Shown here one piece after another: positions 10,807 through 34,108 of a stretch of 47,645 nucleotides of DNA. The DNA lies in the NCBI GenBank assembly GCA_011191985.1, contig DUEU01000081.1, forward strand, positions 1 through 47,645. The letters run 5' to 3'. The stretch is from Dehalococcoidia bacterium (GTDB lineage: Bacteria > Chloroflexota > Dehalococcoidia > Dehalococcoidales > W111). Position numbers and translations under genes: made by a program. Each line of letters opens with the position of its first letter. Within the stretch, counting starts at the first letter, position 1. The notes below the pieces were generated by a model. It ran no database searches. It saw only the letters and a program-made list of their open reading frames with translations, and had not been told where the DNA came from.

Positions 10807-12711
10807 CTAGGGCAACTTGCCCAAACCGGCCAGCTCGTCGGCGATGTCCTTAAGGCCCAGTTCTTCCAGCTTGGCCCTTTTCGGCCGCCCGGTCTTGACA
10901 TCCCAGCCGCGCCGCTCGTAGTACCGGTCTTTAAGCGCTTCGAATTTACTCCTGTCTATCGGTCCGTTTTTCTTCCCGAGCATGGAGCCACCATAGCAGG
11001 TGATAGCCTTCTTAAAGTACGGCTCGTTAATAATGTCGTCTTCCCGGGTGCGGCCTTCTCTTTTGACCATAACCGCCCGGCGTAGGTTCCAGATTCTCTC
11101 GCCAGCCCTGGCCAGCTTCTCAACATCCATATCAATACCAGTAACGGCCGAGAACAACCTGCTTTCCATGACCCTGAGGTCCAGCTCGGGAGGTTTGTAG
11201 AAACTTTTAACATGGCTCCAGTACTCACATACCGTCAGAGAATTTTTCAAACACTGGTTCTCCTGAACCCAGGTAGTTACCAGTTCGGCCCCCGCGTAGA
11301 CCGTTTTGCTGGTATCAAGAATCTGGTAGCCGCTGTATGGCGGCAGACCGAAGTAATCCGTGATTTCTGGCGGCGGGTCTTTGTATTCATGAGTTGACCC
11401 CAGAGGGTCCCGACTGTCGGTAGCCCAATGCAGGGCACTACCAAGGTTATCCACATGGTGATAGGCGCTACCGTGGGCGGTATAAAGCTCTTCCTGCAAA
11501 CTCATCAGCTCTTCGCCATGCGGTAGCCGCTGCCTGAAGTACTCAGTAAACCTCGGCGTGCCTTCACCGTAGGGGATTTCCCCGCTGGCGGCTTTGTTAA
11601 AGAACACCCTCAGGAATTCTTGTTCGGTGGCCGTACCGCCTAACCATTGGCTCGCTGGCAGACCTACATCCTCTTCGATTTCCCTGGTTGATAGGATGCC
11701 GGCTTGATAAGCGAGCAGTAGCAGGAGAGGTATTCCACAGGTTATATCAAAGCTATTTATGCCCACCTTTTGCATCGACACATTTGCCTGCCAGATATCC
11801 CTGGGGGCATCGCTGAACAATGGTGACCATCCCCAGTTGGCACATTTGCTACCGCTCAGTCCTATGCCGGGGATGTAATTGACACTTTGACATTGTTGCG
11901 GACAGCCGTAGCACCCGTGTTGCTTGACATAGTATTTATTGGCGAATATCTCCTGTATTTCATCCGGGGAGCCGTAAGGGGTACGAAAAATTCTGCCCAT
12001 TTGCCCGGCATTCTGATTATTCTCTTCGGTAATAACGCTGGTTAACTGCACGACATCGCGGGCCCGGGCAACGTGCACCGCCCCGTTGCCTCTAACGGCG
12101 ATTGCTTTCAGGTTCTTGGAACCCATGACAGCCCCGAAGCCACCCTGTCCGGCGGCGGAGTTGGTCTCCGTTAAAATTATCGAGATGCGGCTGAGGTTTT
12201 CGCCGGCCGGCCCGATAACCAGTATTGATGCCCCCGCCTCATTGGCCAGTAATGCCTGCTGTGCTTCAAAAGTATCTACGCCCCAGAGGTCATCGGCGTT
12301 CTTGATGGCGATATCTTCATCGCGTATTGAAAGATAGACCGGTTTTGCCGATTTCCCTAGGACGACCAGAGCATCGTACCCGGCGTATTTCAGCTCTGTT
12401 GAGAACCTGCCCCCGAACGAAGAGTAGTTAAATAGTTCCCGGGGGTAGCTCTGCGGTGATATCGAGCAGATTAGCCCCTTGCCAAACGGGCCGTATATCC
12501 CGGCGAGCGGCCCATTGGAAATGATGAGGGGATTATCAGGGTGATAAGCCGCTACTTCCGGACAGCCAAGGTCCCAGAAAATCCGGGTATTAAGCCCTAG
12601 CCCCCCGATAAACTCTTCCGGTCGGTAATCTGTTGTGGCGACTTTGGTTACTTTCCCGCTTGACAGGTCAACAAACAAAACTGTCCCGGCCCAACCAAAT
12701 GTTATTGCCAT
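10807..12711 (-). CDS. aldehyde:ferredoxin oxidoreductase (tungsten/molybdopterin)
   Basis: The 634-residue enzyme of the AOR family oxidises aldehydes to acids with ferredoxin, or runs in reverse, using a bis-pyranopterin tungsten cofactor and one [4Fe-4S]. The N-terminal AOR fold opens with GWAGTVLFVDLSSGKV and FIGGLGLNTRIF. The cofactor region includes GGRFSTELKYAGYDALVV, GPAGENLSRIS and GFGAVMGSKNLKAIAVRG. Cluster cysteines lie in CYGCPQQC, and the distant fourth is probably the Cys in NSLTVCEY. The start is ATG 12711, 2 bases after the ferredoxin subunit stop; the longer frame would overlap that gene. Pairing with a HycB-like subunit resembles the WOR5-like two-subunit AORs. The aldehyde substrate is unknown. 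Confidence 0.94.
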   Translation of the reverse strand: MAITFGWAGTVLFVDLSSGKVTKVATTDYRPEEFIGGLGLNTRIFWDLGCPEVAAYHPDNPLIISNGPLAGIYGPFGKGLICSISPQSYPRELFNYSSFGGRFSTELKYAGYDALVVLGKSAKPVYLSIRDEDIAIKNADDLWGVDTFEAQQALLANEAGASILVIGPAGENLSRISIILTETNSAAGQGGFGAVMGSKNLKAIAVRGNGAVHVARARDVVQLTSVITEENNQNAGQMGRIFRTPYGSPDEIQEIFANKYYVKQHGCYGCPQQCQSVNYIPGIGLSGSKCANWGWSPLFSDAPRDIWQANVSMQKVGINSFDITCGIPLLLLLAYQAGILSTREIEEDVGLPASQWLGGTATEQEFLRVFFNKAASGEIPYGEGTPRFTEYFRQRLPHGEELMSLQEELYTAHGSAYHHVDNLGSALHWATDSRDPLGSTHEYKDPPPEITDYFGLPPYSGYQILDTSKTVYAGAELVTTWVQENQCLKNSLTVCEYWSHVKSFYKPPELDLRVMESRLFSAVTGIDMDVEKLARAGERIWNLRRAVMVKREGRTREDDIINEPYFKKAITCYGGSMLGKKNGPIDRSKFEALKDRYYERRGWDVKTGRPKRAKLEELGLKDIADELAGLGKLP

Positions 12712-12713
12712 AC

Positions 12714-13169
12714 CTATAACCTCTCGTCCTTGGTTACATATGTTAAAGCCTGAAAGGGGCAGTACTCGACGCATACCGGTCCCTGTTCTCTGTCCTTACA
12801 CAGGTCACACTTAAAGGCGACCTTTTTCTCAGCGTTATACTTTGTCCTTGATGGCTCAAAAGGGCAGGCGTCGATGCACAGCTCGCAGCCAATACATTCC
12901 GCCTCGTTGACATATACGGTACCGGTAGCCTCATCAATACACAGGGCTTTATCCGGGAGAGGGCAGGCGTAGTAGCAACCGGGGTAAAGGCACTGCTGAC
13001 ATGCGATGTGGCGGTGCTTGGCGGTAAATGCATCTCTAATAATGTTTGCCCTAGCCAATGCCGGCCCGATGATACCCTCGTGCCACAGCGAGCACATTAT
13101 CTCGCATACTCCGCAGGCAGAGCACACGCTCTGATTATAAATAATCACTCCCGACTTCAGGGCCTCCAT
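12714..13169 (-). CDS. four-cluster ferredoxin subunit of the AOR (HycB/DmsB-like)
   Basis: The 151-residue protein has 16 cysteines in four groups: CSACGVCEIMC, then CQQCLYPGCYYAC, then CIGCELCIDACPF and CDLCKDREQGPVCVEYCPF. This is the 4x[4Fe-4S] pattern of electron-transfer subunits for molybdo/tungsto-enzymes. ATG 13169 follows AGGAGG by 7 bases; an ATG at 13199 in frame lacks a site. It is inferred to take electrons from the AOR catalytic subunit, whose gene follows 2 bases later, to soluble ferredoxin or another acceptor. No twin-arginine signal is seen, so the complex is cytoplasmic. Confidence 0.92.
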   Translation of the reverse strand: MEALKSGVIIYNQSVCSACGVCEIMCSLWHEGIIGPALARANIIRDAFTAKHRHIACQQCLYPGCYYACPLPDKALCIDEATGTVYVNEAECIGCELCIDACPFEPSRTKYNAEKKVAFKCDLCKDREQGPVCVEYCPFQALTYVTKDERL

Positions 13170-13418: not shown

Positions 13419-14183
13419 TTAATGTGGTAGGTGGTGCGGTGTCTGGTGCGGCACCAGAGAATGGGGCTTTTCCTGCCCGTGGGCTTCCATCAGCCTGTCG
13501 TTGCCCATAATCTCACGGGGGTCGCCATCGGCAACGATACGCCCATCGTCCATCAGCACAACGCGGTGGCATATCTCCAGGATGAGTTCTAGGTCATGAG
13601 AGGCAATCAGTAACGTCTCCGCCGATGCCTGCAACAGGCGGATGAGACGGCGACGGGAGCGGATATCCAGGTTGGCACTCGGTTCGTCATAAAGAATCAA
13701 TCTGGGCCTCATTGCTAGCACGCCAGCGATGGATACCATGCGTTTTTCCCCCCCTGAAAGGTGGTGCGCCGGTCGGTCAGCAAGCTCGACGGCACCCACG
13801 GCAGCCAAGGCTGCCAGTACTCTTGCCGCAACCTCGTCTTTGGCCAGCTTCATGTTCTGCGGGCCGAAAGCGACGTCGTCCCATACCGATGGGCAGAACA
13901 GCTGGTCATCCGGATTTTGAAAAACAAGGCCAACATCGGGGCGAAAGTCGCCATTGCGCACCGGTTTGCCCAGCACCGTAATCTCCCCGGCGGCTGGTTT
14001 CAGCACCCCGCATATCTCCAGGAACAAAGTAGTCTTGCCCGAACCATTGGGACCGATAAGACCGACCCGTTCCCCTGGCACTACCCTCAAGTTTACGTCC
14101 TTCAGGACATCAGACCGGTCCGGGTAGGAGAACCACAGGCCGGAAACGGTTAGCACGGGCTCAACCAGTTCTTCTGATGACAT
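13419..14183 (-). CDS. cbiO: ECF transporter ATPase for cobalt/nickel (CbiO type)
   Basis: The 254-residue ABC ATPase has Walker A GLIGPNGSGKTTL, Q-loop FQNPDDQLF, signature HHLSGGEKRMVSIAGVL, Walker B LILYDEPSANLD and switch His in LIASHDLE. It powers the membrane parts CbiM and CbiQ encoded just upstream. GAGG lies a few bases before its ATG, 30 bases after the cbiQ stop. It is the last gene of the metal-uptake operon and is a single ATPase, so it probably works as a homodimer. Confidence 0.95.
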   Translation of the reverse strand: MSSEELVEPVLTVSGLWFSYPDRSDVLKDVNLRVVPGERVGLIGPNGSGKTTLFLEICGVLKPAAGEITVLGKPVRNGDFRPDVGLVFQNPDDQLFCPSVWDDVAFGPQNMKLAKDEVAARVLAALAAVGAVELADRPAHHLSGGEKRMVSIAGVLAMRPRLILYDEPSANLDIRSRRRLIRLLQASAETLLIASHDLELILEICHRVVLMDDGRIVADGDPREIMGNDRLMEAHGQEKPHSLVPHQTPHHLPH

Positions 14184-14213: not shown

Positions 14214-15005
14214 TCATGGCAGCAGTGTGGCCGCCCCGTGTCCGTACAGGATATCGCCGACCACGAACCCGGCGGCGACCATGATAAAAACGCCGAGGAC
14301 AGCCAGATCGCGGGCATGGAGCGGCAGTTCGCCGCCGGTATACGAGGCCTGGCCGTAGCCCCGTAGAATCATGGCCTTGTATACCCACTCCGACCGCTCG
14401 TAGCTGTGCACGAGGAGGCTGCCGCCCAGCCAGGCCGGGATACGCAGGCCGCGCAGACTGAAGCGGTCCCGGTGAAATCCCCGGAGCTTCATCGAGGTCT
14501 GCATTCTTCGCAGGTCGTCACCAATCTCGTGCAGGTAGCGGAAGGAGAGAAGCACCATATCCGCCATGATGGCCGGCAGGCCCAGCGCCCGCATGGCTTT
14601 GATGGTAGTCAAAAAGGGAGTGGTACCGAATAGAACCAGGCCAACAGTCAGTATGGAGAGAAACCTGATAGCTATTGTAAATACTGCCATAATTCCTTCC
14701 TGTCGCAGGTCAACGGGGCCGAGGCTCATCACGATGGTCTGGCCGGAAACAAAAGGCAGGACGAGGACCACTACTAGGAGAAAGAGGGACGGGTAACGCA
14801 ACCGCCCGAGTATGAAAGAAGCGGGCAACCGGGAAACAAGATAGATAGCCGCGGTAACCACTACCATTGCCAGCAGCATGCTCAGGTTGCGTACAAAGGA
14901 GAAGGCAAAGATTAAGGCTATAAAGCCAATCAGCTTGCACCGGGGTTCCCAGCGATGGAGCGGTGAGCTAAGGCCAGAATACTCGTCTATTATGCCCAGT
15001 TTCAT
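14214..15005 (-). CDS. cbiQ: ECF transporter T component (CbiQ type)
   Basis: The 263-residue membrane protein has about five to six hydrophobic segments and two Arg-containing coupling helices, RRMQTSMKLRG and SEWVYKAMILRGYG, that dock on the ATPase in this family. It joins the substrate-binding CbiM to CbiO. Its ATG overlaps the cbiM stop in an ATGA, which supports tight co-translation. Confidence 0.93.
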   Translation of the reverse strand: MKLGIIDEYSGLSSPLHRWEPRCKLIGFIALIFAFSFVRNLSMLLAMVVVTAAIYLVSRLPASFILGRLRYPSLFLLVVVLVLPFVSGQTIVMSLGPVDLRQEGIMAVFTIAIRFLSILTVGLVLFGTTPFLTTIKAMRALGLPAIMADMVLLSFRYLHEIGDDLRRMQTSMKLRGFHRDRFSLRGLRIPAWLGGSLLVHSYERSEWVYKAMILRGYGQASYTGGELPLHARDLAVLGVFIMVAAGFVVGDILYGHGAATLLP

Positions 15006-15643
15006 ACGCCTTCCAGAATTCTTGGTCTTACCCGCTGCAGGAAGACAGCTAATATTGAGGTAATAGCGCCTTCGATGGCAATCAAGGGCAGGTGAGCTAT
15101 GGCCAGGGTATAGATGGCCGCCCGCTCGGTGACGGCGTCCAGCTCGGCCGGCAGGTTGGTCAGCAGAATCACCACAAACAGGGCAACCGATAGCCCCAGG
15201 GCTATCGCCCCGGCCAAGAATCCGAAAACCGCCGTCCTCCTCCGGCCCTTGTTATCACCCAGTTTACGGAGACGGAATATGTAGTGGGCTATTATGGCCG
15301 GGATGCCCATTATCACCGCGTTTACGCCCAGCGTAGTCAGTCCCCCGTGCTGAAACATCACCGCTTGGAAGAACAGGCCGATGAGAATAGCCGGAAAGGC
15401 AAAATAACCCAGTACAGCCCCTAGGAGACCGTTCAGCACCAAGTGGACGCTGGTCGGTGGCACCGGGATGTGAATCCAGGAAGCCACGAAGAAGGCCGCC
15501 GTCAGCAAAGACGCCTTGGGAACATCCTGGCGCGGGTTCTCCCTCTGGTTAATCTTGTGTATTGAATACCAGGTAACGGCCGCGGTAACTGCATACCCGG
15601 CCGCAGTTACCGGAACAGGCAAAATGCCATCGGGGACGTGCAT
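15002..15643 (-). CDS. cbiM: cobalt/nickel ECF substrate-binding protein (CbiM/NikM type)
   Basis: The 213-residue protein starts MHVPDGILP; in CbiM/NikM the amino terminus and His2 bind the metal. A second conserved His sits in PPTSVHLVLNGLLG. The rest is about six membrane helices. The start is ATG 15643 in a TGATG overlap with the preceding gene; longer in-frame extensions would place residues before the obligatory Met-His. No CbiN domain is fused and no cbiN gene is present. The NikL-like gene takes its place, which points to nickel rather than cobalt, though that stays an inference. Confidence 0.93.
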   Translation of the reverse strand: MHVPDGILPVPVTAAGYAVTAAVTWYSIHKINQRENPRQDVPKASLLTAAFFVASWIHIPVPPTSVHLVLNGLLGAVLGYFAFPAILIGLFFQAVMFQHGGLTTLGVNAVIMGIPAIIAHYIFRLRKLGDNKGRRRTAVFGFLAGAIALGLSVALFVVILLTNLPAELDAVTERAAIYTLAIAHLPLIAIEGAITSILAVFLQRVRPRILEGV

Positions 15644-16095
15644 CAGGCCCGCCTCCGCCAGAAATAGAGTGACGTGCCGACCGCCCCCCAGATAACGCAA
15701 GCCGCCATCAGGATAATCTGAAGGGGAGTATAGCCACCGGCACTACCAGCCCCGGTCGAGCCTTCCCCGATGGGGATATGGACGATATCGCCGTGGCCGG
15801 CCTTGCGTACCTGGACATCCCAGGTGCCGGGCCTGGAGGTATCCGGAACGAAGCGGAAACGCCCCTCGTCGTTACAGACGCCGGTCAGCCAGGGGTCAGT
15901 CGGGTCATCAGGCGCGTATATGACAACCTGGGCGCCGGCCATCGGTTCGCCGCTGTCATAGGCAGCGACGATCTCAATCACCACGTCAACCGTGTACTCA
16001 ATTTTGGCCCCGTGGGCGTGGGCCGGTACCGCTAGCATCAGGCATAGCGTCAGAGTAAAAATAAGATCGGTAATAAGCTTCCACTTAGCACCCAT
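15643..16095 (-). CDS. secreted, membrane-anchored NikL/CbiL-like accessory protein
   Basis: The 150-residue protein has a signal peptide (KWKLITDLIFTLTLCLMLAVPAHA) predicted to be cut after AHA. That would leave a mature amino terminus starting His-Gly, a plausible metal ligand. A beta-sandwich like a carboxypeptidase regulatory domain follows (GEPMAGAQVVIYAP, CNDEGRFRFVPDTSRPGTW), and a C-terminal membrane helix near 125-145 ends in WRRRA. It matches the role of the L component in NikKMLQO-type uptake systems, which substitute for CbiN. The gene overlaps cbiM by one base and follows the lipoprotein gene by 75 bases. Confidence 0.75.
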   Translation of the reverse strand: MGAKWKLITDLIFTLTLCLMLAVPAHAHGAKIEYTVDVVIEIVAAYDSGEPMAGAQVVIYAPDDPTDPWLTGVCNDEGRFRFVPDTSRPGTWDVQVRKAGHGDIVHIPIGEGSTGAGSAGGYTPLQIILMAACVIWGAVGTSLYFWRRRA

Positions 16096-16170: not shown

Positions 16171-16926
16171 CTAGTCACAAAGGCAGTGACAATGGCCTTC
16201 GCCGACATGACCCAGGTGCATCTCGGTCATGTTAATGTCCACCGTCTGGCCGTCGGCGTAACCGATAAAGTACTCAAAGCCGAGAGCGCCCTGGTTGAGC
16301 TCGTCGTCCAGCGGTGTCTCCGCGTCGCCAAAAATGTGGTCAAAGTGGAAGGTCATTTCCAGGTCGGCGGTGCCGCCGTCTGAGACTATGCCTTTACGCT
16401 CATCGCCCACGTATTCGCCGCAGTCGTAACTGCATTCGGCGTCAATATTGATGGTAAAGTCCACGGTCTGGCCATCTTTCTCCGCGGTGCCTATCATGAC
16501 CAGAGAGTGGCCAGCCGACGGGCTGGAAGCTGCCCTGACCATATTCCAGGATATGGCATTGTAGTGGCCCGCAGGGACATTTTGTATTTCATCCACCAGT
16601 ATCGACGGTGCATCTTCGCCGCCCTCTGCCAAGTCTACAGTGTACGCATTGCTAAGGCCGACGGTAACCTTCCCATTAATGTTATCACCCATGTGGGGAT
16701 CATACGGTGGGTCGGTCTGATAGGCGGTAATATCGGCCAGGGTAATGTAAACATGGTCGAACCTGATGCTCCAGCCGTCTTTGGAAACAAAACCCTGCCG
16801 GACAAAGTCTTCACCATTGGCATAAAACTGGAGCGTGCCCTTTTCACCGCCTCCAGAACATCCGGAGAGCGTAAAGCTGACGGCCAGCAAAGTGGTAGTT
16901 AGTAGTACCAGTATTCCCTTTTTCAC
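16171..16926 (-). CDS. lipoprotein with His/Cys-rich tail, likely metal-binding partner of the ECF transporter
   Basis: The 251-residue protein starts at a GTG with GGAGG 6 bases upstream. A lipoprotein signal ends in LSGC with the lipid-attached Cys at residue 23, so it is anchored on the outer face of the membrane. The body looks like an all-beta domain (WSIRFDHVYITLADITAYQ, GHYNAISWNMV, TFHFDHIFG). It contains AECSYDCGEY and ends with a dense ligand cluster, MHLGHVGEGHCHCLCD. I do not recognise a named family with certainty; it is somewhat DUF4382-like. Position as first gene of the operon suggests it captures the metal (nickel or cobalt) for CbiM, taking the place of NikK. Confidence 0.82.
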   Translation of the reverse strand: MKKGILVLLTTTLLAVSFTLSGCSGGGEKGTLQFYANGEDFVRQGFVSKDGWSIRFDHVYITLADITAYQTDPPYDPHMGDNINGKVTVGLSNAYTVDLAEGGEDAPSILVDEIQNVPAGHYNAISWNMVRAASSPSAGHSLVMIGTAEKDGQTVDFTINIDAECSYDCGEYVGDERKGIVSDGGTADLEMTFHFDHIFGDAETPLDDELNQGALGFEYFIGYADGQTVDINMTEMHLGHVGEGHCHCLCD

Positions 16927-16978: not shown

Positions 16979-17008
16979 TGCAATTTAATGTATCTGCATA
17001 AATTTGCA
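16979..17008. promoter_or_regulatory. operator array copy A: TGCA-N12-TGCA-N6-TGCA
   Basis: Three TGCA half-sites start at 16979, 16995 and 17005, in the untranslated leader of the lipoprotein-cbi operon. The spacing is identical to copy B exactly 78 bases away, and about 24 of 35 bases agree between copies. The TGCA core is shared with nickel-responsive Nur boxes, though the match here is looser than in copy B. Confidence 0.5.
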
Positions 17009-17027
17009 TTTTTCAAGCCCCTAAATA

Positions 17028-17048
17028 AGCCCTGTTTGTTACAGGGCT
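17028..17048. promoter_or_regulatory. leader hairpin between the two operator arrays
   Basis: AGCCCTGT and ACAGGGCT form a perfect 8-base stem with a 5-base loop, in the predicted 5' leader of the lipoprotein-cbi transcript. There is no clear U-run, so it may be a pausing, stability or attenuation element rather than a terminator. Confidence 0.4.
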
Positions 17049-17056
17049 AAGAAGTC

Positions 17057-17087
17057 TGCAAACTATTGTGTTTGCAATAAATTGCAA
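17057..17087. promoter_or_regulatory. operator array copy B: Nur-box-like TTGCAA inverted repeat
   Basis: Half-sites TGCA start at 17057, 17073 and 17083. The last two sit in TTGCAATAAATTGCAA (17072-17087), an inverted repeat with 7-base arms. It lies just downstream of the predicted start point of the lipoprotein-cbi promoter, where a bound repressor would block transcription. Known Nur (nickel-responsive Fur family) sites have two TTGCAA-like halves with a 5-base gap; here the gap is 4. Assignment to a Nur-like regulator is inference. Confidence 0.5.
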
Positions 17088-17098
17088 TATTTAATCAA

Positions 17099-17127
17099 AT
17101 ATTACCATATCTCTACTACCATGTCAA
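17099..17127 (-). promoter_or_regulatory. extended -10 promoter of the lipoprotein-cbi operon
   Basis: On the minus strand TTGACA is followed after 17 bases by TAATAT, with TGG directly before the -10 (extended -10). The -35 is a perfect match. It lies about 170 bases before the lipoprotein start, so the transcript would have a long leader holding operator copies B and A and the hairpin. Confidence 0.6.
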
Positions 17128-17360: not shown

Positions 17361-17389
17361 TTGACACCGCGATGGCCATATGGTATTAT
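17361..17389 (+). promoter_or_regulatory. arsR promoter
   Basis: TTGACA, 17 bases, TATTAT: the -35 is perfect and the -10 matches 5 of 6. It overlaps the upstream in-frame extension of the arsR frame (ATG at 17372), which argues that translation starts further in, at 17429. Confidence 0.7.
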
Positions 17390-17413
17390 ATGCTTATAAG
17401 CGCATATAGTATC
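17382..17413. promoter_or_regulatory. ArsR operator at arsR
   Basis: GGTATTATATG and CATATAGTATC form an inverted repeat (9 of 11 matching) around a 10-base centre, overlapping the -10 of the arsR promoter. Its core 17384-17405 recurs downstream at 17816-17837 (18 of 22 bases), so it is a likely autoregulatory ArsR site. Confidence 0.6.
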
Positions 17414-17428
17414 AAAGGGGTTAAGAGC

Positions 17429-17803
17429 TTGAGAGATACGATTAAAGCCTTCAAAGCCCTTTCCGACGAGACAAGGATCAGGATACTGAATATTCTCATG
17501 GAGCGGGAGTGTTGCGTCTGCGAGGTTATGCAGGCACTTGATATCTCGCAGACCAGGGCCTCGCGTAATCTGGCTGCACTCTACGACGCCGGTTTCCTAA
17601 GGCTGAGGAAGGATGGCCTCTGGTCGCTCTATTCCATCGATAAGGAAAGTATGCCGGAGTATTTAACCGACCTGGTACGGGCGGTGACCAAGGCCCTGGA
17701 AGGAAATAAGGAGGTCGGGTTGGACTGCGAGCGACTCAAAAAAGCAGAGCGGGTAGGCCCGGGCTGTGCCGACAGGATGCGCTGGGGGAAGCCTTCCGCC
17801 TAG
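17429..17803 (+). CDS. arsR: ArsR/SmtB family arsenite-responsive repressor
   Basis: The 124-residue winged-helix repressor has KALSDETRIRILNILMERECCVCEV, in which Cys29 and Cys31 form the CVC arsenite site of classical ArsR (ELCVCDL type). The recognition region is DISQTRASRNLAALYDAGFL. Without arsenite it would sit on the operator over its own promoter and release on binding As(III). TTG 17429 is chosen because AAAGGGG lies 8 bases before it and because the longer frame from ATG 17372 would begin inside the promoter and operator. It precedes the arsenite pump gene. Confidence 0.9.
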   Translation: MRDTIKAFKALSDETRIRILNILMERECCVCEVMQALDISQTRASRNLAALYDAGFLRLRKDGLWSLYSIDKESMPEYLTDLVRAVTKALEGNKEVGLDCERLKKAERVGPGCADRMRWGKPSA

Positions 17804-32254: not shown

Positions 32255-34108
32255 TTATTCGATGTAAAGCTCCTCTACCTTTTCTGGTAAGGGTACTCCT
32301 TTGGCATCCCATCCCATTAAGGTGTAATAGAAGCTCTTGGCCTTCTCAAATTTTTCACGGTCAAGAGCTTTATCAGCTAGAGCGCCATCGGTCTTAGGTT
32401 GGAAAAAGCGCTCTGGTAATACATCATCAGCAGCAGAAAATCCTTCCCGTATATTGAATAACCTCGCCATCGTCAGAACTCTCTCAGCCACCCTGAGTAA
32501 CTCCGGGATACCGGTATCCCATCCGGTAGCCGCTTTCACGAGTTCAACCTTCTTATCTAAACTGTACTCCAGAAACAAACATGTAGCCAAACAGTCCCCC
32601 AATATTTTGTTAAGCTGGTCTAGCCTGAACAAGGCTACTTTACGGGGACCAATGTCATCAATAGGTAGCAAGTCAATTATTCCCAAGGGATGCATCCCTT
32701 GTAGCATTCCCTCTGACGAAAAGAAGAAGAAATCGATCAAAGCGCAGACGTGGTCAGCACCGTGAGGATTAACCATAAAACCAAGCCCCATACATGGAGA
32801 TAATCTTGGTTCGTGCATCCCGGCTTCCAGTCCTTTAACCTGCATGGCAAACTCCTCTGAGCCCTGGCCAATTTTCTGGGCTAACCGGGCACTACCTTCA
32901 GCCAACAGGTTGCCAATGCCCTCACGTCTGGCAATCAAATCGATAACTTTCAGCATGGCTTCATGATTGCCAAATCTCAGGTCGATTCCATCGGTGTCCT
33001 TGGTGGTCAATAGCCCTTTCTCAAAACACTCCATAGCAAAAGCAAGGGTACCCCCAGTTGAAATAGTGTCCAGTGAATAAGCGCCACAGCGTTCGTTAGC
33101 CTTTACGACGGCTTTGAGGTTACCCATCCCGCAGTTGGAACCCAGTGCCGCGATAGACTCATATTCCGGCGCACCATAGGCAGCGTCAACATGGTATGGT
33201 TCTTCAAATTGAACTACTTTCTTGCAGCGCACCGGACAGGCAAAGCAACCCTCCATACCGACCCACATGGTCTCTTTCATCACACCGGAGTGTATCTGCG
33301 CTGCCTCGGGGAATAAGCCGTCACGGAAATTGCGTACGGGTAAATTCCCCAAAGCCTGCTCTTCAACTAGACTAGGACCACCTGTACCGAGTGCCGATAG
33401 CCAGTGTGGCGGGGCTGCTAACACCTCCTGCCTTATTTCTTTTAAACGCTCACGGTCAGCTATTCTCGGCAAGTTGTGTCCTCTAACGGCGATCGCCTTC
33501 AGGTTCTTGGAGCCCATTACGGCACCAAGTCCGCCTCTGGCCGCGGCATCATAGAGGCCTTGCATAATGCAGGCATAACGCACCTTATTCTCCCCACCTG
33601 GTCCGATCAGTGCCATTTGTATGCGCTCGTCGTCCAACTCCGCTCTTATGGCAGCCTCTGTCTCCTTTGTCTCTTTACCCCAGAGGTGGTTTGCATCTCT
33701 TATACTCGCTTCGCCATCCTGGATCCACAGGTAGACTGGTGTCTCAGCTCTTCCCTCGACAATAATGGCATCATACCCGGCACGCTTTAGCTCAGCCGCC
33801 CAGAAACCGCCAGCCTCAGCTTTAGCAATACCGCCGGTTAGGGGGGATTTGGCACCAATACAGTGGCGAGCGGCACCTGGTAGCTGTAGACCTGATATTG
33901 GCCCCAGAGCAAAAATCAGCTTATTATCGGGAGCTAAAGCATCAACTCCTGGCCTCAATTCCTTCCATAGGTAATAGGTGATGAATCCAGCGCCTCCTAT
34001 ATATCGCCTGCAGAATAGTTCATCAATTGCCTCCGCAGTCGTACTTTTGTTAGAGAGGTTCACTCTTAGGATTCTACCGTTATAACCAGCGGGTGACTCT
34101 TTGGTCAT
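32255..34108 (-). CDS. second aldehyde:ferredoxin oxidoreductase family protein
   Basis: The 617-residue AOR has the N-terminal fold (GRILRVNLSNKSTTAEA, YIGGAGFITYYLW), the cofactor region (GGFWAAELKRAGYDAIIVEG, GPGGENKVRYACI, GLGAVMGSKNLKAIAVRG), cluster cysteines CFACPVRC and a late Cys in GDCLATC. It is complete but differs from the AOR at 10.8-12.7 kb (only family-level similarity), so substrates probably differ. AAGGAGGT precedes the ATG by 9 bases. No ferredoxin subunit gene is adjacent, so it likely uses free ferredoxin. It is flanked by 0.5 and 1 kb of gene-poor DNA, which suggests an isolated insertion. Confidence 0.92.
   Translation of the reverse strand: MTKESPAGYNGRILRVNLSNKSTTAEAIDELFCRRYIGGAGFITYYLWKELRPGVDALAPDNKLIFALGPISGLQLPGAARHCIGAKSPLTGGIAKAEAGGFWAAELKRAGYDAIIVEGRAETPVYLWIQDGEASIRDANHLWGKETKETEAAIRAELDDERIQMALIGPGGENKVRYACIMQGLYDAAARGGLGAVMGSKNLKAIAVRGHNLPRIADRERLKEIRQEVLAAPPHWLSALGTGGPSLVEEQALGNLPVRNFRDGLFPEAAQIHSGVMKETMWVGMEGCFACPVRCKKVVQFEEPYHVDAAYGAPEYESIAALGSNCGMGNLKAVVKANERCGAYSLDTISTGGTLAFAMECFEKGLLTTKDTDGIDLRFGNHEAMLKVIDLIARREGIGNLLAEGSARLAQKIGQGSEEFAMQVKGLEAGMHEPRLSPCMGLGFMVNPHGADHVCALIDFFFFSSEGMLQGMHPLGIIDLLPIDDIGPRKVALFRLDQLNKILGDCLATCLFLEYSLDKKVELVKAATGWDTGIPELLRVAERVLTMARLFNIREGFSAADDVLPERFFQPKTDGALADKALDREKFEKAKSFYYTLMGWDAKGVPLPEKVEELYIE

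Follow-up and report, generated by a model that had tools for sequence, protein, structure and literature searches.

The leader of a metal transport operon in a Dehalococcoidia genome carries two arrays of TGCA boxes directly behind the promoter, which raises the question of which protein reads them and in response to which metal. The initial annotation of the window, i.e. the whole stretch of 47,645 nucleotides analysed here, took this region for a regulated leader of a metal operon. The features needed for the argument are the following:

17099 to 17127, minus strand: extended -10 promoter of sigma-70 type for the operon (TTGACA, 17 nt, TAATAT, TG before the -10), by consensus match only
17057 to 17086, minus strand: promoter-proximal four-box array (array 1, putative operator 1), TGCAATTTATTGCA-aa-CACAATAGTTTGCA, inferred +7 to +36
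17028 to 17048, minus strand: hairpin between the arrays with a perfect 8-bp stem, AGCCCTGT-AACAA-ACAGGGCT
16979 to 17008, minus strand: second four-box array (array 2, putative operator 2), TGCAAATTTATGCA-ga-TACATTAAATTGCA, inferred +85 to +114
16171 to 16926, minus strand: NikK-like lipoprotein encoded at the head of the operon, with a GTG start behind GGAGGA and a weak DUF4382 match below the curated cut-off
15643 to 16095, minus strand: NikL-like subunit, sub-threshold match to the NikL family model (nickel/cobalt ECF subunit), CarboxypepD_reg
15002 to 15700, minus strand: CbiM/NikM substrate-binding membrane subunit
14214 to 15005, minus strand: CbiQ-type T component
13419 to 14183, minus strand: ECF ATPase (CbiO/NikO type)

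Read on the minus strand, the order is promoter, array 1, hairpin, array 2 and NikK-like gene, with transcription presumably starting near 17092. The promoter ahead of the arrays had been recognised correctly in the initial annotation, and so had the arrays themselves: on the plus strand, TGCA-N12-TGCA-N6-TGCA matches perfectly both at 16979-17008 and at 17057-17086, an offset of exactly 78 bp, and the element TTGCAATAAATTGCAA, assigned to array B, lies at 17072-17087. A pattern search showed no further exact three-box match in the 47.6-kb window. With up to two mismatches, the three-box pattern occurred 5 times in the window compared to 4.1 expected matches, which is chance level, so that its significance had to rest on other evidence. 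In the direction of the operon (5' to 3'), each array has the form [TGCA-N6-TGCA]-N2-[YACA-N6-TGCA], and the four boxes at 0, 10, 16 and 26 comprise two TGCA-N6-TGCA dyads with centres 16 bp apart. Since one inner box per array is decayed to TACA or CACA in the window, three boxes instead of four were noticed at first reading. In the whole genome of 2.0 Mb, the four-box pattern with up to two mismatches was found at the two arrays of the window only, and its reversed control gave 0 matches even at three mismatches.

The four-box array with up to two mismatches was present in 133 of 294 genomes of the class, compared to about 33 for the reversed control (a hand count from the table), and in 15 of 26 other genomes of the same order, compared to 0 for the control. 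Where loci were picked by NikM homology alone, the arrays again preceded this operon. In those leaders, TGCA-TGCA distances of 6, 10, 16 and 26 occurred 6, 13, 6 and 3 times, against about 0.15 times each in shuffled sequences; none of 1000 shuffles reached the observed counts, and the distance 11 never occurred. The stronger dyad, derived from 56 arrays, reads TGCAAYTARTTGCA and is often flanked by TAnTGCA, and the second dyad is weaker. As this four-box consensus was built from arrays selected for TGCA boxes, only the conservation of linker and flank is independent. Immediately ahead of Nur-like genes, degenerate four-box arrays were also observed in Chloroflexaceae and in Candidatus Fermentibacterota (L080, 319-348; L094, 2519-2548), which suggests that the operator may reach beyond Dehalococcoidia.

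The genes behind the arrays in the window appear to encode a NikKLMQO-type nickel ECF transporter, since CbiM/NikM, CbiQ and the ECF ATPase are accompanied by NikL- and NikK-type subunits and no CbiN, NikK being assigned by position and neighbourhood and the NikL match lying below its cut-off. Of 393 class genomes, 17 encode homologues of the NikK-like protein, usually by the first gene of the same operon. The reading as a regulated leader is supported here for a presumed nickel-type ECF transporter. Elsewhere in the window, two genes resemble aldehyde ferredoxin oxidoreductases (10807-12774, Pfam-confirmed; 32255-34108, by eye).

As to the regulator, a Nur-like Fur-family gene was found at a distance of 0-57 bp for 35 of the 73 arrays listed, in 28 genomes. 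The Fur-family gene is located between two arrays or beside one in L016, L017, L020, L022, L023, L026 and many other genomes, frequently in the order array, nur, array, transporter, with the arrays 501-523 bp apart. The ortholog of this gene in the window genome is L096 on contig C68. Its closest solved structure is 3EYY, the Streptomyces Nur (5.9e-33 compared to 2.2e-26 for the next), and the profile comparison gave 2.5e-44 for Nur and 2.2e-35 for the next. L096 scores 115 bits to Nur; the genome encodes four more complete Fur-family proteins, which reach 50-70 bits. Both proteins have the recognition helix NISTVYRTLELL in common, and in the tree Nur falls inside the clade with L096 (support 92/84). 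Of the proteins with solved structures, L096 most resembles the Nur of S. coelicolor, and it is the likely regulator of the arrays in the window. The earlier proposal of a nickel-type Fur repressor appears largely right, with a Nur-like Fur-family protein as the most likely binder.

It counts against this reading that the nur-like gene is not located beside the operon in the window genome and that its own promoter has a degenerate array only. L096 is still found beside dtd, fmdB and nadC (by similarity to L016), which in L016 enclose nur and the nik operon. These shared neighbours suggest that the nik operon was relocated away from its regulator while its operators were kept. When L096 (633-3214) was compared with L016 (2276-8229), the gene order of relatives was fmdB-dtd-nur-[nik operon]-nadC, while the nik operon of the window genome is absent from this position and lies beside arsR-ACR3 instead.

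A further point against this reading comes from the nickel-site residues. Nur H70, H72 and H126, which we take to be its nickel-site histidines, align with E79, D81 and H135, i.e. two of the three histidines are replaced by E and D. H42, H97 and H99 of L096 are invariant and align with Nur H33, H88 and H90, which together with H86 presumably form the four-histidine M-site; H86 aligns with G95 beside H96. The nickel site of Nur may itself be a crystallisation artefact (PMC7055735).

The metal can be approached via the genes behind the arrays. In relatives, these comprise NikKLMQO, NikM-PDGLE-CbiQ-ATPase, an SBP_5 binding protein and CooT, as well as a NicO-like permease just under the Pfam cut-off (L161) and ZnuA-like ABC systems (L141, L166, L170, L172 and the window genome). 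CooT binds nickel and serves CODH as an accessory protein (PMC6006190). It is located between the array and the ZnuA-like genes in L170, as is a CooT-like ORF in the window genome, and in L172 the arrays stand behind genes resembling the hydrogenase maturation genes hypD/hypE (by eye). The window genome encodes an NiFe hydrogenase and an acetyl-CoA synthase domain. A search for the arrays before nickel transporters and ureases had been suggested: in related genomes they do stand beside nickel transporter genes, whereas no urease was found in the window genome, so that a link to urease is not supported. From these gene contents, nickel would be the common denominator of the array-linked genes.

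Two further groups of genes were observed in this context. FmdE-family proteins are encoded behind the array in L135, L140, L148, L150 and L165 (in L135 and L165 confirmed by Pfam, together with a DksA/TraR zinc finger), and genes for BtuF/FecB-like binding proteins follow them in L135, L140, L148 and L150; the two together are a candidate nickel uptake system. A conserved protein of about 75 aa with the motif MDxxxKLxxLLxYWIEHNxEHxxEFREWADK lies between array and CooT (L017, 3093-3308; L154, 3466-3696; L158, 2545-2793; L170, 4519-4752) and is a candidate for a nickel-related function.

The same operator could also be bound by a Fur-family repressor that senses zinc, like Zur, or cobalt. The ZnuA-like systems would fit to this, CbiM-type transporters often go by the name of cobalt transporters, and the exchange of H70 and H72 in L096 points in the same direction. 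However, the ZnuA-like genes are separated from the array by CooT in L170 and by a CooT-like ORF in the window genome, the L172 arrays are next to hypD/hypE-like genes, the NikL and PDGLE subunits and the NicO-like permease point to nickel, and Nur is a nearer relative of L096 than solved Zur is. We regard zinc or cobalt as an unlikely signal.

Somewhat less probable still is that nickel control is exerted by another local protein. The gene nearest to the arrays that encodes a regulator is arsR (17372-17803), part of an arsR-ACR3 pair which diverges on the other side. At its own promoter, however, arsR has a palindrome of another kind, and relatives carry the arrays without this gene. This long inverted repeat, CCATATGGTATTATATGC/GCATATAGTATC at 17376-17419, overlaps the promoter of arsR together with the initial codons of its longest reading frame and is probably the ArsR operator; the true arsR start would therefore lie downstream, e.g. 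at the TTG near 17430. An alternative regulator is a second Nur-like protein of the window genome, encoded on contig C8 and truncated at the contig end (L154, 3273-3868, C-terminus). Its gene is itself followed by a four-box array, a 76-aa ORF, the CooT-like ORF and a ZnuA-like metal ABC operon with a methyltransferase, and this paralogue may share the array site with L096. NikR is no candidate, since no NikR_C match was found in the window genome, with positive search controls.

The hairpin between the arrays could suggest that the leader acts as an RNA attenuator. Its 8-bp stem is perfect, as had been annotated, the fold of 17020-17056 has a z of -3.9, and a T-run is present between the arrays in L177 and L188. 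Against this, no terminator was called at 17028-17048, where the U-tract is weak, and the between-array folds in L177, L178, L188 and L172 were no better than shuffles. Among the leaders folded, a strong hairpin was found in that of the window only, an Rfam search of this leader gave no match, and relatives keep the arrays without the hairpin. A riboswitch or attenuator was rejected on the grounds of the missing Rfam match and the lack of conservation, and we consider it very improbable. Even less can be said for a chance TGCA cluster in AT-rich DNA, for which the commonness of the loose three-box pattern speaks, and which is already refuted by the restriction of the four-box form to the window's arrays within 2 Mb and by the spacing and gene association kept in relatives.

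Altogether, the two arrays probably serve as operators at which a Nur-like repressor of the Fur family shuts off the uptake of nickel. While the array, its conservation and position, the link to regulator and nickel genes and the kinship to Nur were computed, binding, sensed metal, repression and dimer stoichiometry are inferred. Each array would be a double operator of two TGCA-N6-TGCA dyads. With 16 bp, or some one and a half turns of the helix, between the dyad centres, two repressor dimers could sit on roughly opposite faces. The distance from the -10 to the first array is 13, 14, 13 and 14 nt in the window, L177, L178 and L188, respectively. At about +7 to +36, protein bound to array 1 would block initiation or escape; a metal-loaded repressor is thus proposed to prevent open-complex formation or promoter escape there, and array 2, some 80 bp downstream, may add a further barrier, either as a roadblock or as a reserve site. 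Under nickel shortage, release of the repressor would allow NikKLMQO to be made.

The leaders of stand-alone nik operons often contain a second array, but the distance between the arrays is not conserved. Compared to 78 bp in the window, it amounts to 76 bp in L188, 101 bp in L177, about 90 bp in L178 (where the second array is degenerate), 43 bp in L191 and 69 bp in one further paired leader, and L186 and L179 have a single array only. An importance of the exact 78-bp separation, which corresponds to 7.4 turns, is consequently not supported, and looping set by this distance or dependent on phase was dropped. Since the distance varies and some leaders have one array, the second array probably represents an additional block and not half of a loop of fixed length. 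An origin of the paired leader by loss of nur was considered as well, since taking about 430 bp out of the 501-523 bp that separate the arrays around nur would leave about 80 bp. Though attractive, it was not adopted because array 1 lies at the -35 before nur, but downstream of the -10 in stand-alone leaders (by eye).

Among known systems, Nur of S. coelicolor is the closest: a Fur-family nickel-uptake repressor with TTGCAA half-sites, the same recognition helix and the best structural match. Its Nur-box is tTGCaa-N5-ttGCAA with half-sites 11 bp apart (PMC3919588). The annotated likeness to this box holds for the half-sites; their distance in the array, however, is 10 bp (13 pairs in relatives, and none at 11), and the array unit is a double dyad of four boxes. 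Nur is linked to sodF and nikABCDE, whereas the arrays are linked to ECF NikKLMQO/NikM-QO, CooT, FmdE and ZnuA-like genes in Chloroflexota. Since box spacing and two nickel-site histidines differ, we describe a Nur-like regulon with a putative double-dyad operator and not Nur proper, although it would operate in the manner of Nur. Each Zur operator of E. coli takes up two neighbouring Fur-family dimers with high cooperativity, and the salt-bridge linker residues of Zur are stated as not conserved in Nur (PMC4219657); these operators are a model for the two-dyad array, but differ in sequence, metal and transporter. NikR also exerts nickel-dependent control of nickel import; unlike the protein proposed here, it is a ribbon-helix-helix protein, absent from the window genome, with the unrelated operator GTATGA-N16-TCATAC (PMC7055735).

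A wider reading is put forward tentatively, as possible but not favoured. Chloroflexota may have a distinct Fur-family nickel sensor, with E/D for the nickel-site histidines of Nur and a 30-bp double-dyad operator, that controls mixed nickel systems (ECF, NicO-like, ABC, FmdE with binding protein, CooT with ZnuA-like); in stand-alone operons, a second downstream operator may act as an elongation roadblock and result in two-step repression. The literature searched held no account of this operator in Chloroflexota, which is weak evidence as most subscription papers lay outside its coverage.

In Dehalococcoidia and other Chloroflexota, the four-box array would allow nickel control to be read across whole genomes. 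CODH/ACS and NiFe hydrogenase need nickel in these organisms, and the literature searched yielded no described nickel regulator for them. Furthermore, orphan transporters of the ZnuA-like and FmdE-linked kinds would gain a likely metal from the arrays, which may also offer a natural operator set for studying how members of the Fur family distinguish between metals and between half-site spacings.
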